A stretch of 41,800 nucleotides of DNA from Aquificaceae bacterium (GCA_015490155.1 WFYI01000091.1:1-41800), one strand, 5' to 3'; shown: positions 12,967 to 35,955, numbered from the stretch's first letter. Numbers and translations are program-made. The notes: a model not told the origin generated them from the sequence alone.

Positions 12967-14252
12967 GACACATACTAAAAACCGACCCGGAAATATTTGA
13001 GGTAATATCTAAGGAGTACGACAGACAGTTCTACCACTTGGAGATGATAGCCTCCGAAAACTTCACATCCCTCGCTGTCATGGAGGCGCAGGGTTCCGTG
13101 CTTACCAACAAGTACGCCGAAGGTCTACCCTTCAAAAGATATTACGGCGGTTGTGAGTTCGTGGATATAGCCGAGGACTTGGCTATAAAGAGGGTCAAGG
13201 AGCTTTTCGGGGCGGAGCATGCCAACGTCCAACCCCACTCGGGCTCTCAGGCTAACATGGCGGTTTACCTGTCAGTTCTGAAGCCCGGTGACACCATAAT
13301 GGGCATGAACCTTGCCCACGGGGGACACCTGACCCACGGTGCAAAGGTAAACTTCTCCGGAAAAGTCTTTAACGTTATTCAGTACGGAGTTGACCCGGAA
13401 ACGGAGCTAATAGATTACGACCAGATGTACGAGCTTGCAAAGGAACACAAGCCTAAACTCATAGTTGGCGGTGCATCTGCCTACCCGAGGGTGATAGACT
13501 GGGCAAAGATGAGGGAGATTGCGGACAAGGTAGGGGCGCTCTTTATGGTGGACATGGCTCACTACGCGGGGCTTATAGCGGGCGGTGAGTATCCTAACCC
13601 CGTTCCTTACGCGCACTTTGTAACTTCAACCACGCACAAAACACTCAGGGGACCCAGAAGCGGGTTTGTATTGTGCAAAGAGGAGTTCGCCAAGCAGGTG
13701 GACAAGACAGTGTTCCCCGGCATTCAGGGAGGACCCCTCATGCACGTCATAGCCGCAAAAGCCATAGCATTCAAAGAAGCCATGACTGGGGAGTTCAAAG
13801 ACTACGCAAGACAGACGATACTCAACGCAAGGGTTCTCGCAGAGGAACTCATGAGGGAAGGTTTCAAGGTAATATCGGGCGGTACGGACAGCCACATAGT
13901 TCTCGTGGACTTGAGGAACTTCAACCTAACAGGTAAACAGGTTGAGGAAGCCCTCGGAAGGGCGAACATAACTGTGAATAAGAACGCGGTTCCCTTTGAC
14001 CCACAAAAGCCTACGATAACGAGCGGTATAAGAATCGGAACGCCTGCACTTACCACAAGAGGAATGAAGGAAGAGGAAATGAAATTGATAGCCGGATTCA
14101 TAGCCCGTATAGTAAAAAACATAGACAGCGAGCAAGTGATAAACCAGATTAAAGAGGAAGTAAGGGAGCTTTGTGAGAGATACCCTCTGTATCCCGAACT
14201 CAGGGAGGAACTGAATGAGCTTCGTAATAGCGAGGCAGCCGATATACGATAA
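12963..14252 (+). CDS. glyA: Serine hydroxymethyltransferase
   Basis: PLP enzyme that interconverts serine and glycine and supplies methylene-tetrahydrofolate. It is 429 residues long. The PLP lysine is Lys226 in [13 protein letters not shown]. Other family motifs are [40 protein letters not shown] and [13 protein letters not shown]. The start forms a 4-nt ATGA overlap with coaBC, and the end overlaps the EAL-HDOD gene by 38 nt. Confidence 0.98.
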
Positions 14253-15447
14253 AGAAGGGGAAATCTTCGCCTACGAGGTTTACCTGAGAAGAAAGGGCGA
14301 CCTAAACCGCTACCCCTCCGACGTACCCTTTAATAAAGCAACTTACATACTCGCAGAAATTCTATCCGAGTTTGGGCTTGAAAAGGCGGGCAGCGGTAAG
14401 AGGGTTTTTATGAATGTGTCCCTTGACTCGGTTCTCAACAAAACCTTGGAGATATTAGACCTGTCTAAAATGGGTTTTGAGATAATACCTTCCCAGATAG
14501 AGATAGGTAGTGCCGTCTACGGAAACGTACTTAAGAAGCTGGAAGAACTTAAACAGAAAGGTGTTGTATTGACACTTAACGAAAAGCTCTATTCCTCAAA
14601 GTACATAGAACTCTTTAGGCTAAGCGACATAGTAGAAATATCCGTAAAGGGGTTTAGCGAGGAAAAAGCCGAAGCTATAAAGAGAAATGGAAAGAAGCTT
14701 TTGGTAAACATGATAGAGACTGAAGAGGAAAAGAGCCAAGTAGAACCCTTTGCAGATTATCTGGAGGGCAACCTGTTGGGCGCACCGCAGGTTATAAAGG
14801 AGTTTGAGATTGCACCCTTCCTTAAAGGAACGCTCATGAGATTGATATCAGCCCTCAACAGTGCGGACAGCCTAAAGGAGTTCGCCCAGATAATAGAGAG
14901 CGATGTGGGAATGGCGGCTAAACTGCTCAGGTTTGTGAATTCCGCTTACTTTGTCCGCCGAAAGGAAATACAGGACATCTACCAAGCTTGCTCTTATATA
15001 GGTATGGACAACCTCAAAAAGTTCATACTTCTCTTAGCCACCAACGACTACGTTGTAGTAGAAAATCCGGAGCTATGGAAAAGGTCTCTTATAAGGGCTA
15101 TAATCGCTGAAGAGATTGCTAAAAAGATAAACGCCTCACTTAAAAACGAGGCTTACATAGCGGGGCTTTTCTCACTCATAGACGAGATACTCAACGTGGA
15201 TAGGATTGAGTTCCTAAAGGAAACCGGTGTAGATGAGAAGATAATAAAAGCCTACACCGGAGAGGAAAAACTTTTAGGTGAGATACTTACCATAGCCGTT
15301 GCGTTAGAAGACGCTTATCAAAGGGGAAGTGAAGCCCTTACCACGATAGCTGAAGAAATATCGGAGCAGGTAAACATACCTGCCATAGAACTTGAGATAG
15401 TAGTCAACGATGCGGTCAAACAGGCGGAAAATGTAATCAGGATTTAG
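14215..15447 (+). CDS. Degenerate EAL plus HDOD domain protein (YuxH-like)
   Basis: A 410-residue signalling protein. Residues 1-195 follow the EAL fold ([22 protein letters not shown], then VFMNVSLDS), but the EAL triad reads YEV and metal-binding residues later in the domain are not recognisable, so cyclic-di-GMP hydrolysis is unlikely. Residues 200-390 form an HDOD domain ([35 protein letters not shown] style core). This pairing occurs in the YuxH family, which has regulatory roles, sometimes tied to motility or chemosensory systems. The ATG has GGGAGGAACTGA before it, placed inside glyA. Its 3' end overlaps the converging rhodanese gene by 11 nt. Confidence 0.88.
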
Positions 15448-25453: not shown

Positions 25454-25825
25454 TTAACTTATTGACTTCAGTATGTTTTCCAAAACCTCAAGGTTTATAG
25501 GCTTCACTATGTAAAGAGTGCCTCCAGACATCAATGCCTTACGTCTATCCTCTTCAGAGTCCAAGGTTGTTATAAAGACCACGGGAGTGTACCTATACTC
25601 TTCCAGCTTCCTTAGCTTCCTAACGAACTCGTATCCGTCCATCACGGGCATGTTTATATCTGACAGCACGAGGTCGTATTTAGTCTTCATCGCCATCTCT
25701 AAAGCCTCAAGCCCGTTCTCCGCAGTATCTACCTTGTAGCCGAAGTTCCTCATCAGTGAAGAGTGATATATGCGTATGGTCAACGAGTCGTCCACCACTA
25801 GAGCCTTTTTCTCCTTACCACTCAT
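25454..25825 (-). CDS. CheY-like single receiver domain (last gene of chemosensory operon)
   Basis: 123 residues, one receiver domain with acidic pocket Asp12-Asp13, phosphorylated Asp56 (LSDINMPVMDG) and Lys108 (IVKPI), so it should accept phosphate from CheA. It lacks any output domain. The ATG overlaps the cheR end by 11 nt with GGAGGACGAAG as binding site. It resembles the other CheY (30695-31051), and with no CheZ visible one of the two may act as phosphate sink. Confidence 0.95.
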   Translation of the reverse strand: MSGKEKKALVVDDSLTIRIYHSSLMRNFGYKVDTAENGLEALEMAMKTKYDLVLSDINMPVMDGYEFVRKLRKLEEYRYTPVVFITTLDSEEDRRKALMSGGTLYIVKPINLEVLENILKSIS

Positions 25826-26630
25826 CTTCGTCCTCCGAAACCTTCCTATAAACTATTGAATTTTCTATCCTTACAGGTTCAAAGAGTGAAGAAGACCTCG
25901 ATAGGCTTTCCGCATGCCCTAAGAATAGGTAGCCGCCGTCAGTCATGACGTCGTATAAGTTGTTAATCGCCTGAGACCTTGCCCTGTCATCAAAGTATAT
26001 GAGCAGGTTCTTGCAAAATACGTAGTGGAACTTGCCTAACCCTTTTAGGAAAAGCCTGTTAAGGATATTTCCTTCGTAGAAACGCACCCTCTTCTTAATT
26101 ATCTCCTTTATTTTCCATCTACCTTCATCTACTTTATAGAAGTACTTCTCAAGGTACTGAGAGGGCAATCTGGATACGCTTCTTCTTCCGTAAGTACCTT
26201 CCTTTGCCTTTGCAAGGGCATTCTTGTCTATATCTACACCCGTTATCTCAAATTTTGTAGGACTTCCCAGAACCTCGTTTAGAACTATAGCTATGCTGTA
26301 AGGTTCCTCTCCGGTTGAACAAGGTATACTCAGAACCCTTACCGGATAACCAAGGCTTTCTGTCTGAACGAGCCGTGCAAGGACTTTCAGGTGATAGTAT
26401 TCTCTGTAAAAATATGTCTCGTTAACAGTTATCTTTGAGATAAAGTCCTTGAGGACATTTTTGTCCATCTTTAGTTTAAATAGGTACTCCTTGAGCGAGG
26501 TTATACCCAGCTCCTCCATGTGCTCACTAACTCTGTTCTCCACAAAGTACTTCTTCCTTTCGTCAAAAACTATTCCAGTGTTCTCGTAAATTATCCTTTT
26601 TAGGGTGTCGTAGTAAAGCTGTGTAAGCAT
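25815..26630 (-). CDS. cheR: Chemotaxis protein methyltransferase CheR
   Basis: 271 residues. It transfers methyl groups from S-adenosylmethionine to receptor glutamates. Family motifs are NETYFYRE (about 69-76), IPCSTGEEPYSIA (SAM site), FCKNLLIYFDD and YLFLGHAESL. The N-terminal helical domain is present. No receptor C-terminal pentapeptide tether is visible on either MCP of this operon. Lies 4 nt after the HEAT-repeat gene. Confidence 0.96.
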   Translation of the reverse strand: MLTQLYYDTLKRIIYENTGIVFDERKKYFVENRVSEHMEELGITSLKEYLFKLKMDKNVLKDFISKITVNETYFYREYYHLKVLARLVQTESLGYPVRVLSIPCSTGEEPYSIAIVLNEVLGSPTKFEITGVDIDKNALAKAKEGTYGRRSVSRLPSQYLEKYFYKVDEGRWKIKEIIKKRVRFYEGNILNRLFLKGLGKFHYVFCKNLLIYFDDRARSQAINNLYDVMTDGGYLFLGHAESLSRSSSLFEPVRIENSIVYRKVSEDEDEW

Positions 26631-26634
26631 GTCG

Positions 26635-27396
26635 TCAACTTCCGAATATCTCCATATCCTTTTTTATATCCATCTCCATACCTATAGCCCGTGCGTTCTC
26701 CAAAGCTTCCGGATAAATTTCCTTGTCCCCTAAAAATACAAGTATTTTATAAATCCAGTACTTACCCATAGGGTCTTGAATTTCCTCCAATTTCTCCCTT
26801 AGAGGTTTTATTAATCTTTCGTCTTTGAAGTTTCCGTATATTATGGTTGAAGCAAGGGTTGTCAATCCGTAAAGGTCGCCCATCTGATAAATCTCTTCCA
26901 TAATCCCGTTAACCACTTCCTCTTTCATATCCGGGAAGTTTCTCATGTACTCAAGCGCTGTGAACTTTACATTTGGGTTTTCATCCGACAAAGCGGAGAT
27001 TATCTTTTCAAGGGACTCTTTCGTGTTTATGCGGGAAAGTACATCAAGACCGAACTTCCTCATGTTGTAATCTTCATGGCTTAGGAGCTCCCTTTCAATC
27101 ACATTCAGACAGGTGTTTCCGTAAGAGGAGAGTATATCTATCGCCGCATGCCGGAGCTTAGGCTCTTCTACCTTAAAGAGCTTAACTACTTCACGGCAAA
27201 CTACATCGCTCAAGTTGCTGAACGAAGAAAGAGTATTCTTTGCTGCCTCAAGAACAGCCTTACTTCTCATGCTTACCATAACCTTAACTATCTCTTTTAT
27301 TACCTCTTCATCCGGATAATCCACCAAAGTTTCTATCGCCTCCCTGACTTCCGCTTTATCCTCTGACTTAAGCTTTTTAAGGAGTTGTTCCTTCAC
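26635..27396 (-). CDS. HEAT-repeat protein between cheB and cheR
   Basis: 253 residues of paired helices in HEAT-like repeats of about 30 residues, for example EVREAIETLVDYPDEEVIKE, AVLEAAKNTLSSFSNLSD, KLRHAAIDILSSYGN, MRKFGLDVLSRINTKES and NVKFTALEYMRNFPD. No catalytic motif is visible. The GTG start forms a GTGA overlap with cheB and uses AGGAGGATAAAAAA. HEAT-repeat proteins occur in some non-flagellar chemosensory clusters, such as Che7 of Myxococcus, where they act as output or scaffold partners; a like role here is inference. Confidence 0.85.
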   Translation of the reverse strand: MKEQLLKKLKSEDKAEVREAIETLVDYPDEEVIKEIVKVMVSMRSKAVLEAAKNTLSSFSNLSDVVCREVVKLFKVEEPKLRHAAIDILSSYGNTCLNVIERELLSHEDYNMRKFGLDVLSRINTKESLEKIISALSDENPNVKFTALEYMRNFPDMKEEVVNGIMEEIYQMGDLYGLTTLASTIIYGNFKDERLIKPLREKLEEIQDPMGKYWIYKILVFLGDKEIYPEALENARAIGMEMDIKKDMEIFGS

Positions 27397-28436
27397 TTTT
27401 TTATCCTCCTGAGGAACTTCTTTATAGAATCGGCTATCTTGTAAGAGGGCAGTATCTCAAGGGCTGCACCCAGCTCTTTCGCCGCTGCAGGCATTCCATA
27501 GACCACGGCAGTCTCTTCCGACTCGGCTATAGTCGGGCAACCCCTCTGCTTCATCTTTAAAAGCCCCTGTGCTCCGTCCCTGCCTATGCCCGTGAGCAAG
27601 ACTCCCACCGCGTTGGGACAGAATATCTCCGCCACAGAGTCAAAGAGAACGTCCACGGAAGGGTAGTATATGTAGCTGTCGTCTTTAAAAAGCTTGACCC
27701 TCTTTGTAGGAGTTATCTTCATGTGCCAACCTCCAGGTGCCAGGTATCCGTATCCCCCAAGAATGCTCTGACCCTCGGAAGCATGAAAGAACTTCATTGG
27801 AGTGTATTCGCTAAGCCTCTGAGCCAGAGAGGGCGTGAACTGAGGTGGCATGTGTTGAACCACAAGGTAAGCTGTCTCATCGTCTATCTCGCAGTCTTTG
27901 AGTATGTCTATCAGCGTTGCAGGTCCCCCGGTTGATATTCCCAGAGCAACTGCATACTTAGCAATCCCCCTCTTGGCGGGACTGAAAGAAGATACAGAGC
28001 TTCTTCTTGTGAACCCCCTCTTAGCTATCCTGAACCTTGCTCTGTATGCCTCTTTGACCTTTGCAACTATTTCGTCGGCTATCTTATGTATGTCAAGGGA
28101 TATGGTTCCAGAAGGCTTGGGAACGTAATCAAAGGCTCCCATGTCCAGAAGCTCCATAGTTATGGGTGCGTCCTCTTTAGTGAGCGAAGAAACTACAACC
28201 ACAGGCAGAGGATTTTCCTCCATTATCCTTTCCAGAGCTTCTTTACCATCCATAACAGGCATATTGATATCTAACGTAACCACGTCTGGATTTAGAGTTT
28301 TAACCTTTTCTATGGCTTCAAGTCCGTTTCTGGCAACGTCTATGACTTCTATATCTGGGTCACCTTCAAGTATCTCCCTTATCGCCTTTCTCATGAAGGC
28401 AGAGTCGTCAACTACCAAAACCTTTATCTTAGACAT
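27393..28436 (-). CDS. cheB: Chemotaxis response regulator methylesterase CheB
   Basis: 347 residues: a receiver (1-120) with Asp10, Asp11 and phosphorylated Asp56 (LDINMPVMDG), a linker, and the methylesterase domain with catalytic Ser168 (GISTGGPATL), His195 (VVQHMPPQF) and Asp287 (GIGRDGAQGL). It removes methyl groups from receptors and deamidates Gln. Complete and apparently active. ATG preceded by GGAGATGAGCC, 15 nt after cheA. Confidence 0.97.
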   Translation of the reverse strand: MSKIKVLVVDDSAFMRKAIREILEGDPDIEVIDVARNGLEAIEKVKTLNPDVVTLDINMPVMDGKEALERIMEENPLPVVVVSSLTKEDAPITMELLDMGAFDYVPKPSGTISLDIHKIADEIVAKVKEAYRARFRIAKRGFTRRSSVSSFSPAKRGIAKYAVALGISTGGPATLIDILKDCEIDDETAYLVVQHMPPQFTPSLAQRLSEYTPMKFFHASEGQSILGGYGYLAPGGWHMKITPTKRVKLFKDDSYIYYPSVDVLFDSVAEIFCPNAVGVLLTGIGRDGAQGLLKMKQRGCPTIAESEETAVVYGMPAAAKELGAALEILPSYKIADSIKKFLRRIKK

Positions 28437-28451
28437 GGCTCATCTCCGAAA

Positions 28452-30698
28452 TCATTTAAGGACTTCAAGAACGTAAACTATACTCCCGTCTCCAAGAATA
28501 GTAACACCGCTTATATCATCGGAGGTTGGAATAACGTCAGGTATCGGCTTTACAACTGCATCTATAGTGCTGATTACCTCATCAACCACTATTCCCTGAG
28601 TTAGCTCGTTGTCTATAAGTAGGGTTATACTCCCGTTGGCGGTGCTGTTTATACCCAGCTTTTCCGAAAGAAACTCCAGCTCCAAGACCCTATCTCTGTG
28701 ATACACTACTCTGAGTCCCTTAAGGGTTTTAACCTTATCCCTCGTTATCTTAAATACCTCCCCCACGCTCTCGGCCGGCACGCCAAATATTACATCGCCT
28801 ATCCTGACGAGGAGAATCTTCCTTATAGCAAGGGTGAGGGGAAGAACCATCTTAACGGTTGTTCCCGCCATCTTCTTGGTCTCAACGAACACCTCACCTC
28901 CAAACTCCCGCAGCGTGCTGGCAACTACGTCCATACCCACACCCCTGCCGGAAAGCTCGGTCGCTTGGTCTTTTGTGGAAAAACCTGGGTGGAATATAAG
29001 CTGAACTATCTCCTCCTCGCTCATATTCTCCAACTCTTCTTGGGTATGCAGCCCCTTCTCTATTGCCTTTTTCTTAACCTTATCCACGTCTATGCCTCTG
29101 CCATCGTCCGCCACCTCTATAACCACGGAACCTCCTTCCTGATATGCCTTTATGGTTATGCTACCCTCAGGCGGCTTTCCGAGCTTCTCCCTCTCTTCCA
29201 AAGTCTCTATTCCGTGGTCTATTGAATTTCTTATCAGGTGAATCATAGGTTCTGCAATCCTTTCCACTATTACCTTGTCAAGCTTGGTTTCTCCCCCTTC
29301 AATATTGAGCTTTACCTTTTTATTCAATACCCTTGATAAATCTCTGACAAGTTTCGGAAACCTTTCAAAGAGAGTTGAGAGAGGTATCATCCTCATTTCA
29401 AGGACAGTCCTCTGAAGCCCCTCCATTAAACTCCTAAATCGGTGGATGTTATCCTTCAGTTCCTTTGATGCCTCTGGAACACTGTAGGTCTTCTGGAGTT
29501 TATCCACAAACAGATACATCCACTCCTTAAATACGGAAAGCTCTCCAACGATGTCCATGAGCTCCTTTACCAAGTTCTCCTCAACACGTAGATAGTTGCT
29601 CTTGGAGATATACTTGGCAGTATCAAAGCTCTTTTTATCTTCCTTTTTCTCCTCCTTCTTTTCCCTCTTGCTCTCTACAAGCTTCTGAAGGTCGTTGGCA
29701 AGTTCTTCAAGGTGTTCACAGAACTCCTTAAAATCTATGTTTCCAAAGGCATTTTGCAGGTTCTTTATTTTTTCGTTAAGTTGGTCAAATCCCAGCTCCT
29801 TGGTAAGCTTGTATAGGGTTATCAAGGCTCTCCTGAAAAAATCCGCCTCTTCTTCACTTATCTCTCCCTTAGAACATAGTTCCCTGAACAAAGGTATATA
29901 CTGAGAAGCCACATTCAACAACGCAGAAAGGTCTGAAGGCAAACCTTCCCCTTTGCCCATATCTTTACTTTTTTCCGAACTTTGTCCCAGCTCCTCAAGG
30001 AGTTCATAAACATCCTCAACGTCCTCTTCTCTACCCTCGGAAAAGGCTAAAAATAGGTCGTCAAGTCTATCAACGAGTTCTTGAAGTATCTCCACCTGCC
30101 TCGAGCTTAACCCTATACCGCCGTCCCTTGCTTTCTGTAGAACCGATTCCGCTTTATGTGTTATCTCAAAGATCGCTTTTAGGTTCGGCTCCTCTCCATA
30201 GGAGAGGATCAAACCCGTGTTGCCCTTTAGGGTATGGAAACTCCTAAAAACCTCGTTTATAAGCTCAAGACTGCCAGGAGCCTGTGCTAGCTCTTCAAGG
30301 GAAGAAGAGAGCCTTGATAGAATCTCCTCCGTCTCCAGCTTGTAGTTTTCTAAGAGAGATTCGGGAACCTCACTGGCTCCTTGCTTTTTTTCCTCTTCTC
30401 TCGTTTCTTCTTGCTCTTTAGATTGCTCTCCTCCCTCAAGCTCTTCTACCTCAACCCCGTCCTCAAGTATAAACTCCAAGAGTTCAAGTATCTCTTCCTT
30501 GGGTCTGTCTGTCTCCAAAATCACATCGGCGTGGAAGACATGTTCGTCGGTAGGTTCCTCTTCTGGCTCAGGGATTTTCTCCTTTATTATCTCAACCTCC
30601 GTATTTCCCAGCTCCCTTAAATCTTCCAAGTAGAAACGGGGGTCTATAGCCCTTTCAAAGACGCTCTTGCCAAGTCTGAACTTTATCAAGTACTTCAT
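28452..30698 (-). CDS. cheA: Chemosensory histidine kinase CheA with extra N-terminal domain
   Basis: 748 residues. Before the phosphotransfer domain is an extra module (about 1-85, with RLGKSVFERAIDPRFYLEDL) seen in CheA-like kinases of pilus-type and cyanobacterial systems. The Hpt domain (about 112-225) has His155 in FRSFHTLKGN. An acidic and helical linker follows, then dimerisation helices (about 370-430), the ATPase (N-box HLIRNSIDHGIE, VADDGRGID, ELSGRGVGMDVV) and a C-terminal CheW-like domain. No receiver is fused, in contrast to many pilus CheAs. The start overlaps the upstream cheY by 4 nt. Confidence 0.96.
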   Translation of the reverse strand: MKYLIKFRLGKSVFERAIDPRFYLEDLRELGNTEVEIIKEKIPEPEEEPTDEHVFHADVILETDRPKEEILELLEFILEDGVEVEELEGGEQSKEQEETREEEKKQGASEVPESLLENYKLETEEILSRLSSSLEELAQAPGSLELINEVFRSFHTLKGNTGLILSYGEEPNLKAIFEITHKAESVLQKARDGGIGLSSRQVEILQELVDRLDDLFLAFSEGREEDVEDVYELLEELGQSSEKSKDMGKGEGLPSDLSALLNVASQYIPLFRELCSKGEISEEEADFFRRALITLYKLTKELGFDQLNEKIKNLQNAFGNIDFKEFCEHLEELANDLQKLVESKREKKEEKKEDKKSFDTAKYISKSNYLRVEENLVKELMDIVGELSVFKEWMYLFVDKLQKTYSVPEASKELKDNIHRFRSLMEGLQRTVLEMRMIPLSTLFERFPKLVRDLSRVLNKKVKLNIEGGETKLDKVIVERIAEPMIHLIRNSIDHGIETLEEREKLGKPPEGSITIKAYQEGGSVVIEVADDGRGIDVDKVKKKAIEKGLHTQEELENMSEEEIVQLIFHPGFSTKDQATELSGRGVGMDVVASTLREFGGEVFVETKKMAGTTVKMVLPLTLAIRKILLVRIGDVIFGVPAESVGEVFKITRDKVKTLKGLRVVYHRDRVLELEFLSEKLGINSTANGSITLLIDNELTQGIVVDEVISTIDAVVKPIPDVIPTSDDISGVTILGDGSIVYVLEVLK

Positions 30699-31051
30699 CT
30701 CACAACCCTTTTTACTACCTTTACAAGGTCTTCCGGTCTAAAGGGCTTTACTATCCAGCCGGTTGCTCCCAATTTCTTTGCCTGTTCCTTTTTAGCGGCT
30801 TCTGTTTCTGTAGTTAGCATCAATACAGGCGTGGTTCTATTAAAATTTCTAAACTCCCTTAGAAATTCCAAGCCGTTCATAACAGGCATATTTATATCAC
30901 TTATTACTATGTTGTAAGTATTCCTCCTAGCCAACTCAAGAGCCTGCTGTCCGTTCTCCGCAGTATCAACGCTAAAGCCTTCAGGCTCAAGAGCCATCTT
31001 CACGAGGTTTCTCATAGTGGCTGAATCATCCACAGCGAGAGCTTTCTTCAT
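30695..31051 (-). CDS. cheY: Response regulator CheY
   Basis: 118 residues, single receiver with Asp8-Asp9, phosphorylated Asp52 (SDINMPVMNG), Thr80 and Lys102 (IVKPF). Placed directly before cheA with a 4-nt overlap, the usual pairing. It has AAGGAGGTGAGGC before the ATG. Which motor or pilus it controls cannot be told from the window. Confidence 0.96.
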   Translation of the reverse strand: MKKALAVDDSATMRNLVKMALEPEGFSVDTAENGQQALELARRNTYNIVISDINMPVMNGLEFLREFRNFNRTTPVLMLTTETEAAKKEQAKKLGATGWIVKPFRPEDLVKVVKRVVR

Positions 31052-31066
31052 GCCTCACCTCCTTTT

Positions 31067-32224
31067 TTAAAACAGCTCCACGTCCGTTTCCACGTCCTTC
31101 AGCTTCTCTCCCACAACATCTTCCTCCTTGTTTATCGTCCTGCCTTCCGACCTGGCGATAATCTCCCTCTCATCGTGCAGCTTAGGGATAGCCTTAAACT
31201 CTTCGTAGAGCTTTATAACGTTATCGTAAGCCTCTGCCACCTCTTTACTTCCCCTGAGTATGTCTTCAAACTCATCTATCATGCTTGCAAGTATCTCAAG
31301 GGCATGATGGGTATTCATAGCCCTCTGATTGGCAAGGTCAATGCTTTGGAGAACGGAGGTTATCGTATGTCTTACCTCGGAAAGCATATTCATGTCATCT
31401 TCAATTGAGTTCCTCACGTAATCTATGAAATCTATGAAGTTCTGAGTCATCCACGTTAGGTCTTTATTTAGGTCTTCGCTGAGTTCTATCTGTTCCCTCT
31501 CAAGGCTTTCCATCTCCGTATCAAATTGGGACTGCCTCTCTACCTGTTCGGTAAACCGTTTGTGAAGTGTTTTTATAGCTTCCACTATCTCCTGGGCAAG
31601 CTCGTTGGTTCTCGCAGAAGCTTTACGTACTTCATCCGCAATAACTTTAAAACCTCTTCCGTGCTCCCCAAGCCTTGCCGCTTCTATGTAAGCATTTAGG
31701 GCTATTATCTCTATAACTTCGGCTATGCTCATTATTCTCCTTGCACTATTGGTGAGCTGGGAAACCTCTCTTCCTATATCCTCTATTCCCTCTTTTAGAG
31801 ACTTAGAACTACTTTTTATAACCTTTCCGGAGTCCTTAAGAACATACAACTTTTCCAAAAACCTCTGCTTCATGTAATCTGTTGACTTCTTGCATATGCA
31901 TTCCTCCCCAGTAAAGCCGCAAACATCAATATTATCCTTATACTTCCACACCCTTTCCTTGACATCTTCGGGTATGTTGAGCAAGGAAAATCCCATCTCA
32001 CGGGTATGAGCGCAGGCAACGTATCTCTCAAATATAATAAAATCTCTAAAACTTCCTTCCACTTTAATAAAGAATTTGTTGAGCTTTTCCAGAATGCCTC
32101 CGAAAACCGAATCAAGCTCGGAGAGCTTGGCAGCCTGCAAAAGCTCAGAGGTAGCCTTGACCGTGCTGAGTATCACGTTCGTAATCTCCAGAAACTCCTT
32201 TTCCCTATCCTTTTCACCCTCCAT
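31067..32224 (-). CDS. Short soluble MCP-like receptor with cysteine cluster
   Basis: 385 residues, no membrane helix or signal peptide. Residues 160-215 form the hairpin tip (IIALNAYIEAARLGEHGRGF then KVIADEVRKASART), a shifted version of the MCP consensus. The N-terminal 150 residues match no domain I know; they hold Cys71, His73, Cys102, Cys109 and Cys111 (ACAH, then DVCGFTGEECICKK), which look like ligands of a metal or Fe-S site. The C-terminal part after the tip is long and acidic, ending in VELF. ATG chosen over a TTG two codons earlier because AAGGAG sits six nt before it. Confidence 0.82.
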   Translation of the reverse strand: MEGEKDREKEFLEITNVILSTVKATSELLQAAKLSELDSVFGGILEKLNKFFIKVEGSFRDFIIFERYVACAHTREMGFSLLNIPEDVKERVWKYKDNIDVCGFTGEECICKKSTDYMKQRFLEKLYVLKDSGKVIKSSSKSLKEGIEDIGREVSQLTNSARRIMSIAEVIEIIALNAYIEAARLGEHGRGFKVIADEVRKASARTNELAQEIVEAIKTLHKRFTEQVERQSQFDTEMESLEREQIELSEDLNKDLTWMTQNFIDFIDYVRNSIEDDMNMLSEVRHTITSVLQSIDLANQRAMNTHHALEILASMIDEFEDILRGSKEVAEAYDNVIKLYEEFKAIPKLHDEREIIARSEGRTINKEEDVVGEKLKDVETDVELF

Positions 32225-32235
32225 GTACAACTCCT

Positions 32236-33621
32236 TTAACCTTCAACCTCTAACTCATGTCCCTCCAGTAAGGATACGTCTTCATCCTTAACTATCCTCT
32301 CAGGAGAGAGGATAAACACTATGCCCCCCTCATCGGTCTTTATAATTCCTTCAAGAAACTCTTCCTCCGGCTCGTTTACTCCTTCGGCAGGCTGTATGTT
32401 CTCCTCCTCGGTTTTGAATATACCCTTCAGGTTGGACACCTTTACGCCCACCGGGAAGTCCTCAAGAACTATGACCCTGTTGGAGTCCTCGTCGCAGGAG
32501 AGTCCCAATCTCTTACAGAGGGAGATTATCACTATGACCGAGTTTCTCAGATTAAACATGCCCTCAACGTAGTCGGGAGAGTTGGGAAGCTGAGTTATAC
32601 CCGACAGCTCCACCACCTCCTTTACCTTTTCTATGGGAATTGCCATATCCACATCGTTAATGGAAAACCTAACGAAGTTTCTCATGGATTTTACCTCCGC
32701 ATGAACCTCCTCCTGAGCCAGCTCTTGGGAGTAATCCTCCTTGCCCAGCTCCTCAACGTCAAGTATCAGAACCAACTTACTGCCGCCCTCTAAGGCTATA
32801 ACACCCCTGGAAGATACACCCTCAACCTGAAGGATGGAATCTTTGCCTACCCACCTTATCTCTCTAACGTCGTCAACCGCAGCCCCGAGGCTCTTAGAAC
32901 CTACATCAATTACGATAACCCTCTTCTCTCTGTTATCAGAGTTTACTCCGAGGAACTTCTTCATGGAGTAAAGAATAAGTTCTCTATCTCTGAGCAAAAA
33001 GACACCCTCTATGTAATCCGGAGTTTTGGGAAGTTGAGCTACGCTTGAAGGATAATCCACCACTTCTCTTACGCTCTCCACGGGTATGGCAAACCACTCC
33101 TCCCCTAAGGAAAATATCACAAAGCCCTCAGTCTCCTCAATAGCCCTTGCACCATTAGAAACGTCTAAGGACTTACCCTTCTTTTTTTTTGAGCTTCTCT
33201 TTGCAGCTTTAGCCCTTTTCTCAAGAACCGGTTTTAAGTTCAAAAGCAGAAGTATTCCGCCCTCGTAGTCCAGAATCCCCCGCACGAACTCCTCTTTGAC
33301 CTCGGTAAGCTCGGCATCCTTTGCTTCTTCAAGCTCTTTTTCTTCAACGTTTATAATTCCCATAACCTTGCTTACCAGAAGCCCGACAACACCCTCTTCC
33401 TCTTCTACGATAAGCAGGGTGTCCCCGTCAAGGGGAGTGTCCCACAGGAGCTTACCCGTATCAATAACCGGTATAACGTTATTCCTAAGATTTATCACAC
33501 CCCGCAGGTAGTCGGGGGACTTAGGCACAGGGAAAATTCTGTCTACCTTAACGGTCTCTACCACCTTATCGGTTTCGTAAATAAACCTTTGCTCCCCCAC
33601 GGAGAAAACTATATAAACCAT
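32236..33621 (-). CDS. cheW: Triple-domain CheW coupling protein
   Basis: 461 residues containing three CheW domains in a row, at about 1-135, 165-305 and 330-461. Each repeats the family pattern of a first strand (YIVFSVGEQRF, FVIFSLGEEWF, FVRFSINDVDM), a PDYxxGxxxLR motif (SPDYLRGVINLRN, TPDYIEGVFLLRD, SPDYVEGMFNLRN) and later hydrophobic strands. CheW joins receptors to CheA; a three-headed version could crosslink the receptors and kinase. Domains 1 and 2 are joined by a Lys-rich linker (about 136-150). The ATG follows GAGGTGAGCT, 8 nt after the upstream receptor. Confidence 0.94.
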   Translation of the reverse strand: MVYIVFSVGEQRFIYETDKVVETVKVDRIFPVPKSPDYLRGVINLRNNVIPVIDTGKLLWDTPLDGDTLLIVEEEEGVVGLLVSKVMGIINVEEKELEEAKDAELTEVKEEFVRGILDYEGGILLLLNLKPVLEKRAKAAKRSSKKKKGKSLDVSNGARAIEETEGFVIFSLGEEWFAIPVESVREVVDYPSSVAQLPKTPDYIEGVFLLRDRELILYSMKKFLGVNSDNREKRVIVIDVGSKSLGAAVDDVREIRWVGKDSILQVEGVSSRGVIALEGGSKLVLILDVEELGKEDYSQELAQEEVHAEVKSMRNFVRFSINDVDMAIPIEKVKEVVELSGITQLPNSPDYVEGMFNLRNSVIVIISLCKRLGLSCDEDSNRVIVLEDFPVGVKVSNLKGIFKTEEENIQPAEGVNEPEEEFLEGIIKTDEGGIVFILSPERIVKDEDVSLLEGHELEVEG

Positions 33622-33629
33622 AGCTCACC

Positions 33630-35525
33630 TCAAAAAGCCTGAAGCTCATCGGCAACAGCGGCAAGCTCGTCTATCGCTTGAGCTATCTGCCTTACCGCCT
33701 GCTCTATCTGCCCTATCGCCTGAGAAAGCTCGTTTATGGTTCTTGCGCTTTCCTCGGCTGCGGTGGCTATCTGCTCCGAAGAGGATACCATCATGTCAAC
33801 TCTGCCAAGTATGTCCTTGGCACCCTTTTCCGTGTTCTCAAAGCCCGAGTATATGTTTTGAGCTACCCCTAAGGCCTCCTCCAGCATAGATAAGGTACCG
33901 GTCGTAGTGTTTATATCTATAGTGGTCTCCGAGGATGCTATGGTTATCTGAGCGTTAAAGACGTCAAACTGCTCGTCTATGCTCGTTAAGCTATCCTGCA
34001 GAGAGTCTATGTTCTCCGTGCCTTCAGTGGCAAGGTTCTTTATGTCAGAAGATACCACCTCAAACCCTTTGCCGAACTCTCCCGAGCGTGCAGCCTCTAT
34101 AAAGCCGTTGACCGAGAGCATGTTCGTCTGAACCATGATAAGCTCAAGCTTGCCGATTATCCTATTCATACTGCTGGTGGTCTTTCTAAGCTCCCTGAGA
34201 CCGTCTAAAGTGCCATCAAGCCCCTCTTTCAACTTCTGAAGGTTCGTAAATGCCCTGTTCAAAGAGCTTTTACCCTGCTTATAGGCCTCAAGGGCAGAAG
34301 ATACGGACTCAAGACTCTTTTCCGCACTCTTGACCACATTCTCAGAAGAGGTTTTTAGCTCCTTAGCCAAAGAGAACATTCCCTCCGCAGCCCTAGCCTG
34401 CTCTTCTGCAGCGGCTGAAAGTTGGTCAACCGCTTGTTTAACTTGTTCAATGCTACCGCTGAACTCCTCAACGGAGGCAGAAAGCTCCTCGGCGGCTGCG
34501 GCTACCTGTTCGGCAGCCTTATCTTCTATGGCCGGAGCGTCCTTTAGCTCCATAGCCATGCGCCTGACCTCTTCGGCAGCTGCGTTAATCTCGTCCATTG
34601 CGGTGGCAAGCTCACCCACGGAACGGGAAATCTCCTCGGCGGCGGAAGATTGCTCCGCAGCGGCGGACGCCACCTGCTCCGAGCTGCTCTTTACCTCCTC
34701 AAGGCTTCTAAGCTCCTCTCTGTAAAGGCTAATAAAGTCCTCAACCGTCAAGACGAGGTCGTTAATCATAGAGGATATGTTCCCAAACTCCTCAACTATC
34801 TGATTCATGCTCTCTACCTGAGCCTTACCCTCTTCCACCAGCTTAACTATCTGCTCTACCAGCTTCTTAATGTTTTCAACTATGACTCCCAGCAAATCTT
34901 GAATCTTGCCTGTGCTCTTCTCAGAGGCCTCCGTCATTATCCTAACTTCCTCCGCAACTACGGAGAAGCCCTTGCCGTGCTCACCGGCCTTTGCTGCCTC
35001 TATGGCTGCGTTCAGAGCCAAAAGGTTTATCCTGTCCGCAACCCTGAGGATTGAATCCGTTATCTTCTCTATATCCGTAGATATTCCCTCTATCACCTGA
35101 ACCGAGTCCGTCACGCTCTCTATCCTTTCTGCCGTATCAAGCATACTTTTGCCTAGCTTGGATACGGTATCCTTCAGATTCTCGGTTCTGTCTCGCAGGT
35201 CTAAGCTCAGAGAGTTAAGGCTGTCTATCTCCTCCAGTCCGCTTTTTACCAACTTCTCTACTTCACCTATGGCCTTCCTGTTTTCATCTGCAGACCTTGC
35301 AGCCTCTTCAGCTGCAGATGCAACCGTCTCAGCTGAGCGCTTTGCTTGTTCCGTGGCAGAGGCTATCTCTGTTATTGAGGCAGCCACCTCTTCCGATGCA
35401 GATGCAAGCCTCTCAACAAGAGCTTGTTTCTTAGCCGAGGTTCGGCTCTGCTTCTGTTGAGACAGCTTGGCCCTAATATTCGGAGGTTTGTGACCACCCT
35501 CATCAGGCGGTAGAATGTCTTTCAT
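33630..35525 (-). CDS. Soluble chemoreceptor with two tandem MCP signalling hairpins
   Basis: 631 residues, almost wholly coiled coil and without transmembrane helix, signal peptide or recognisable sensor domain. Two hairpin tips occur: one at about 166-195 ([20 protein letters not shown] then [10 protein letters not shown]), which is canonical, and one at about 463-500 ([20 protein letters not shown] then [10 protein letters not shown]), which is diverged. Each tip has its own antiparallel arms, rich in Ala-Glu heptads with possible methylation sites (for example [19 protein letters not shown]). They meet near residues 328-340 ([13 protein letters not shown]). ATG preceded by GGGAGGTGAGAT. 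Confidence 0.93.
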
Positions 35526-35571
35526 ATCTCACCTCCCATTAACGATATTCTAAACTCTAACTATATGTTTA

Positions 35572-35955
35572 CTATAACTTATCTAATACTTCCAGCACCT
35601 TATCCAAACTTATGGGGCGTCTTATCAACCCGTCCCCGTGCATAGTTTTAATTAGCTCATCTACAGCTATATCAACAGAATCCACGTTAAAGGTAAAACC
35701 GTAAACCTTACCCCCCTCACTCAAAAGTTTCTCTAACCTTAACTTTAATAACTCACTTTCTCTATGTGAACAACAGTCCAAATCGATAAATATTATCGAG
35801 TAACCGTCTCCCGGCTCGTAATTAACCCTCTCAAGTTCCTTATATGAAAGGCTATCCACACTATAATTATCGGAGCTTAGAACTATAAATTTAATAGCTT
35901 CTATGAAAAACTTTGAATCGCTCACCACAAGTAGCTTCCTTGTACGTTCACTCAT
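35572..35955 (-). CDS. Degenerate receiver-domain protein heading the chemosensory operon
   Basis: 127 residues with the receiver fold outline: KLLVVSDSKFF (only one acidic pocket residue, Asp13), SIIFIDLDCCSHRES (Asp58 or Asp60 at the phosphorylation position, then two Cys) and LIRRPISLDKVLEVL, where the conserved Lys before Pro is Arg. Loss of the Lys and half of the acidic pair suggests it is not phosphorylated normally, a pseudo-receiver. Its ATG lacks a clear ribosome binding site. It is the first gene of the operon, 46 nt before the double-hairpin receptor. Confidence 0.7.
   Translation of the reverse strand: MSERTRKLLVVSDSKFFIEAIKFIVLSSDNYSVDSLSYKELERVNYEPGDGYSIIFIDLDCCSHRESELLKLRLEKLLSEGGKVYGFTFNVDSVDIAVDELIKTMHGDGLIRRPISLDKVLEVLDKL

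Follow-up and report, generated by a model that had tools for sequence, protein, structure and literature searches.

A probable class F9 chemosensory operon in Aquificaceae and a second soluble receptor that could be the sensory partner of DosM

What kind of chemosensory system is encoded in a 41,800-nucleotide stretch of DNA from an Aquificaceae bacterium (GCA_015490155.1 WFYI01000091.1:1-41800; hereafter the window), and what might it control? Ten open reading frames (ORFs), all on the minus strand, occupy positions 25454-35955, and because the gaps between them run only from -11 to +46 bp, they are likely to form one operon. A sequence-only reading had described them as ten tightly packed genes with a CheA-CheY-CheB-CheR core and as an intracellular chemosensory operon of unassigned output. 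ORFs, gaps and Pfam matches bear out the packing and the core, and the unusual gene set is real, but its class appears to be a known one. Since DosM and CheW3, described as unique to class F9, are both present, we regard it as highly probable that this is a full class F9 operon, which would build a cytoplasmic double-layer array.

Class F9 is marked by two unique components, DosM and CheW3 (PMC9321776). In the operon, the DosM gene (33630..35525) encodes a soluble receptor with two tandem signalling hairpins (two MCPsignal stretches in Pfam), no transmembrane segment and no sensor domain; a sensor is lacking in 98% of DosMs (PMC9321776). The CheW3 gene (32236..33621) encodes one 461-aa protein with three concatenated CheW domains (PF01584, 3 stretches, E 5e-86), and the tripling of CheW that had been claimed therefore holds for domains and not for genes. 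A full-length homologue of CheW3 (522 aa) is found in Methylobacterium currus. CheA and CheY share the cluster with DosM, CheW3, CheB and CheR, and a second chemosensory class and flagella occur in the same genome, which is a usual, not strictly defining trait of F9. A spacing of 301 residues separates the two DosM tips in 11 of 11 Aquificota orthologues, against 300 in 8 of 8 proteobacterial DosMs, and such constancy would be expected if DosM sets the distance of the two baseplates. In Vibrio cholerae, F9 arrays have been imaged by cryo-tomography as purely cytoplasmic structures of about 35 nm in height with two layers, both of which are spanned by DosM (PMC7534058), and the cytoplasmic array of the sequence-only reading is well supported through membership in this class. 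Both receptors are soluble, as had been stated, with highest 19-residue Kyte-Doolittle means of 1.04 and 1.47.

The CheA protein (28452..30698, 748 aa) contains an N-terminal domain, a single Hpt, dimerisation and HATPase domains and a terminal CheW domain, with no receiver (Pfam). In the tree of CheA cores, it joins the CheAs of four proteobacterial clusters with DosM and CheW3 (support 95/94), and a grouping with the flagellar CheAs of Aquificota is rejected (p-AU 0.02). Two properties of the tree weigh against the F9 assignment: the branch of the window CheA is long, and the references are F9 by gene content, with no CheA of V. cholerae and no other class-labelled F9 CheA included. For these reasons gene content is given more weight than the tree in assigning the class. 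The N-terminal 110 aa have no detectable relatives in PDB and none in the other CheAs of the panel. The domain content of CheA also bears on another explanation, in which the operon is a system of the alternative cellular function (ACF) or type IV pilus (Tfp) class with a cytoplasmic receptor. Type IV pilus-like (PilT-like) ATPases are present in the genome, and the soluble receptors and the HEAT-repeat protein had pointed that way in the sequence-only reading. However, Tfp CheAs and many ACF CheAs are tied to multiple Hpt domains and a C-terminal receiver (typical, not universal; PMC10782961), unlike the protein found here, and DosM together with CheW3 are marks of F9 (PMC9321776), so that we consider this explanation very improbable.

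The HEAT-repeat protein (26635..27396; PF13646, HEAT_2, E 5e-17) does lie between CheB (27393..28436; receiver and methylesterase, PF00072 and PF01339, E 4.7e-52) and the methyltransferase CheR (25815..26630; PF01739, E 2.1e-51), but it is not the oddity for which it had been taken. We examined eight proteobacterial DosM/CheW3 clusters located on plasmids of Methylobacterium currus, Methylosinus trichosporium OB3b, four Azospirillum, Eleftheria terrae and Sphaerotilus sulfidivorans, in which domains were verified for four DosMs, three CheW3s and three HEAT proteins. Their genes follow the order DosM-CheW3-CheB-HEAT-CheR-CheY-CheA, so that cheB and cheR have a HEAT gene between them in every one of the eight, and because of this common position the HEAT protein is a standard member of F9. 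In the literature searched, the only HEAT protein found with a chemosensory cluster is a haloarchaeal HEAT_PBS protein, which links Che to the archaellum (PMC2666748), and the accessible F9 literature does not mention the HEAT protein as a conserved component of the class.

Where, then, could the signal enter? The V. cholerae F9 array needs at least one further soluble receptor, the identity of which is still to be determined (PMC7534058), and the second receptor of the operon (receptor 2, or MCP2; 31067..32230; PF00015) is an obvious candidate. According to the orthologue alignment, it has one signalling hairpin and an N-terminal domain with four cysteines (C73, C104, C111 and C113) that occur without exception in 14 of 14 sequences. 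The domain could plausibly be a metal or redox sensor, and the internal cue of the sequence-only reading (redox, metal or metabolite) is possible in view of the four cysteines. Besides, the window protein carries a DxxxQ motif at 298-302, which lies exactly 116 residues past the point where the tip motif begins in 11 of 11 F9-linked Aquificota sequences and is intact in a twelfth (G008). All four proteobacterial F9-linked receptors have F/Y-Q-DxxxQ, the catalytic signature of CheZ (PMC7750401), 113-118 residues past the tip, compared with 1 of 25 other receptors of the loci scanned. At its C-terminus receptor 2 ends with ETDVELF, and an [IV]ELF end is common to both phyla, being present in 12 of 12 F9-linked Aquificota receptors and, as IELF, in 4 of 4 of the proteobacterial ones. 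Such an end resembles the NWETF tether, to which CheR and CheB bind in enteric receptors. The last 37 residues of receptor 2 (351-387) have a model confidence below 50, as a tether would show. We propose tentatively, and as rather less likely than not, that receptor 2 may be the sensory and reset hub of F9, which senses metal or redox state through its cysteines, acts as a phosphatase on CheY1 and docks CheR and CheB, and that the proteobacterial receptors with IELF and [FY]QDxxxQ may be the same hub with other sensors.

Against this proposal stand a poor model of receptor 2, a weak profile comparison with CheZ and chance occurrences of plain DxxxQ. The model of receptor 2 (AlphaFold, four sequences) is of low confidence, with a mean predicted local distance difference test (pLDDT) score of 66, and is uninformative on whether the cysteines meet. 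No sensor fold was identified when the model was searched against PDB, the best match (E 6.5e-3) being the cytoplasmic domain of a Thermotoga receptor, and a search of plasmids for relatives of the four-cysteine sensor returned other methyl-accepting proteins, aligned mainly in the hairpin. The profile comparison with CheZ (hhalign) is weak for the proteobacterial set (P 0.006, probability 6%) and gives no match at the site for the Aquificota set; Pfam CheZ (PF04344) has no match in the window protein and reaches E 2.9 in one relative. In addition, 2 of about 24 other receptors scanned carry plain DxxxQ at that spacing by chance.

The chances are about even that the DxxxQ motif and the ELF tail are structural features of the coiled coil rather than a phosphatase site and a tether. 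The weak profile score and the chance occurrences speak for this explanation, as does the Aquificota version of the motif, which has no F/Y-Q before DxxxQ, unlike CheZ (PMC7750401). It has to face the distribution of the full signature given above, and also two genomes (G013 and G023) in which no F9 CheA or CheW3 was found. Each of them holds a receptor-2 paralogue that keeps the four cysteines and the hairpin, but in both the Gln of DxxxQ is changed (to Glu and to His) and the tail is lost, and the two cases are independent on the tree. The Azospirillum F9 clusters point the same way: no DxxxQ/IELF receptor is found in the stretches read, but cheC, encoding another CheY phosphatase, is present.

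Some further receptors are related to receptor 2 or share its motif. In G023, the operon has apparently shrunk to two genes, because a pseudo-receiver, the type of protein that heads the window operon, still directly precedes the receptor-2 paralogue. The paralogue of G013 lies beside an apparent orthologue of a gene at 14215-15447 of the window, which adjoins glyA and encodes an HDOD protein with an N-terminus resembling a degenerate EAL domain. On a plasmid of Aeromonas sp. BC14 (L164:7407-8999), an FQDxxxQ receptor with the same spacing and an adjacent CheY is encoded in a che cluster that is not F9, so the CheZ-like site may occur in receptors beyond this class. In the open literature searched, we found no report of a receptor with a CheZ motif or a built-in off switch.

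The operon also encodes three receiver proteins. At its head, REC0 (35572..35955) has no Pfam match when searched alone, while a profile built from nine orthologues hits CheY structures with E down to 3.5e-8. In the orthologue alignment, F16, F17, E19, A20, F23, I24, D58, R113 and P114 are invariant; Asp58 is thus kept, the acidic pocket is mostly lost and the conserved Lys is replaced by Arg, which confirms the pseudo-receiver seen earlier at this position. REC0 lies 35-119 bp upstream of DosM in every Aquificota locus that extends that far. A conserved small protein (about 91-96 aa, KKTYIFDDxTLDMID...) is encoded upstream of the pseudo-receiver in four loci (L063:4100-4390, L067:4124-4414, L073:6967-7242 and L128:10513-10911) and was not seen in the window. 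CheY1 (30695..31051; PF00072, E 1.7e-31) and CheY2 (25454..25825; PF00072, E 5.7e-27) are intact receivers. The CheY tree separates two groups in 98% of bootstrap trees, with modest support values: CheY1 falls with the extra CheYs that proteobacterial F9 clusters encode, and CheY2 with the CheY located after cheR in these clusters. In M. currus, Eleftheria and Sphaerotilus, the gene for the extra CheY is next to that for the receptor, but in OB3b it is not.

The question of what the operon controls has to be asked of the whole genome. The window corresponds to contig C91 in a draft (1.59 Mb, 127 contigs, 96.5% complete), and ORF and neighbourhood reading of the window gave no flagellar genes. 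Upstream of the operon are an ABC1/UbiB-type gene and a ClpC-like gene, and downstream an ADP-heptose-type kinase gene and a YraN-like gene (named from sequence). The earlier statement that flagellar, pilus and CheZ genes are missing holds for the window, but the genome has flagellin, FliM, CheZ and the PilT-like ATPases. CheW domains are found only on the window contig and on contig C106, which encodes CheA, CheW, CheV, CheY, CheZ, a short receptor and FliM. Because flagellin and FliM are present and a separate CheA-CheW-CheV-CheY-CheZ cluster lies there, flagellar control is most likely handled by C106.

This arrangement has to be weighed against an explanation in which the F9 operon is itself the flagellar chemotaxis system of the genome, or a second input to the motor, without an output of its own, which we hold to be unlikely. 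The genome is flagellated by gene content, flagella occur in 97% of F9 genomes (PMC9321776), CheY1 and CheY2 are intact, and CheR was found in the draft only in this operon. However, the complete set on C106 adjoins fliM, no flagellar genes neighbour the operon in the window, and among the genomes of the phylum in which CheA was matched, the majority carry only the flagellar type. In V. cholerae, deleting the F9 system leaves chemotaxis without a detectable change, and a review still calls its function elusive (PMC7534058). As for the lone CheR, a gap or loss in the draft is the probable reason, because in the sister genome G063 another cheB and cheR pair lies by dnaK and the flagellar cluster, and the draft has a second CheB, on contig C2. 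The same genes weaken the idea that the window CheR serves all receptors as the sole CheR. In G063, a TnpB-like transposon protein of 565 aa (L094:13656-15353, contig C66; named from sequence) is encoded between the flagellar cheR and cheB, and this may explain the scattered cheR/cheB arrangement in the genus.

The flagellar switch is an unlikely first client of the F9 operon, because CheY, CheZ and FliM are encoded together in a separate cluster, but cross-talk is possible. The sequence-only reading had suggested a non-flagellar output, which is no more than plausible, given the second che cluster by fliM and the missing V. cholerae phenotype (PMC7534058). It had also named findings that would count against it, a standard flagellar cluster elsewhere in a genome with no other che genes, together with a CheA of an F class; half of this applies, since the CheA probably falls in an F-named class, F9, but other che genes exist. 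In four genomes the F9 cluster is flanked by GGDEF/EAL genes, one of them encoding a protoglobin-PAS-GGDEF-EAL protein, and PilZ is nearby in a fifth (loci L063, L065, L066, L068 and L073). Genes of cyclic di-GMP signalling were considered as the output and kept only as a hint, because different genes occur at different places and none flanks the operon in the window.

To see how widely the operon occurs in the heat-loving Aquificota, we searched 136 genomes of the phylum for orthologues. Those of the 748-aa CheA were found in 16 genomes of three genera in one family (64-95% identity, some cut by contig ends), and the remaining CheA matches are of the flagellar type (33-46% identity). CheW3 occurs in 15 genomes of the same three genera, with weak partial matches also beside other CheAs. 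Eight other Aquificota genomes have the whole order DosM-CheW3-receptor 2-CheY1-CheA-CheB-HEAT-CheR-CheY2, with CheW3 split into two frames in one of them, and partial contigs agree with this order; the genes flanking the cluster vary between genomes. A scan of named genomes matched only very close relatives. A contig filed under an Acidilobaceae archaeon metagenome-assembled genome (JALWOJ010000088.1, L019) carries receptor 2 (89%), CheY1, CheA (95%), CheB and HEAT very similar to those of the window, and is most likely a misbinned Aquificota contig. In six genomes of another family of the order (G071, G072, G079, G080, G081 and G087; L115-L120), CheW-like stretches that exceed one domain in length and are broken by a stop lie beside flagellar-type CheA.

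Judged from gene content, the comparison shows a conserved F9 set of DosM, CheW3, CheA, CheB, HEAT, CheR and CheY2, to which Aquificota add receptor 2, CheY1 and the pseudo-receiver. In the mechanism that we propose, DosM rods would span two baseplates of CheA and CheW3 and form the cytoplasmic double-layer array, as inferred from the structure in V. cholerae, and receptor 2 would be the second receptor required by this array, as we infer here. The signal would enter through the four-cysteine domain, CheA would phosphorylate CheY1 and CheY2, the [IV]ELF tail would recruit CheR and CheB, and the CheZ-like DxxxQ site would dephosphorylate CheY1. Receptor 2 could therefore be the missing sensory partner of DosM, and if it combines signalling with dephosphorylation of CheY, the receptor would contain its own off switch. 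The residues to examine are few, namely the four cysteines, the DxxxQ site and the C-terminal tail. Class F9 is already known, and the new part may be these features of receptor 2.

Compared with CheZ, receptor 2 has DxxxQ in common, and the proteobacterial receptors also share the preceding F/Y-Q, but receptor 2 is a chemoreceptor and the similarity beyond the motif is not significant, so we would not file it as CheZ. The proteobacterial DosM/CheW3 clusters resemble the window operon in the DosM-CheW3 head, the cheB-HEAT-cheR-cheY block and a CheA that falls in one clade with it in the tree (four tested), and four of the eight have an IELF-tailed [FY]QDxxxQ receptor. They differ in that cheA comes after the cheY that follows cheR and in having no four-cysteine receptor, while the Azospirillum clusters have cheC and a response regulator instead of a receptor. 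Cluster I of V. cholerae, in its published description, also has a tandem-hairpin soluble receptor (DosM, VC1403), a triple CheW (VC1402) and a CheA (VC1397), with a separate flagellar chemosensory system beside F9; the Aquificota operon departs from it in including CheY1 and another soluble receptor, in having a pseudo-receiver as head and in an extra N-terminal domain of CheA. Nitratiruptor and Nautilia, which are deep-vent bacteria, have partial F9 sets with dosM, cheW3, cheB and cheR, but F9 cheA and cheY are absent from their clusters, unlike the full Aquificota cluster (PMC9321776). On the evidence of these comparisons, the Aquificota form of F9 differs from the others in gene order, the N-terminal domain of CheA, the pseudo-receiver and the four-cysteine receptor.

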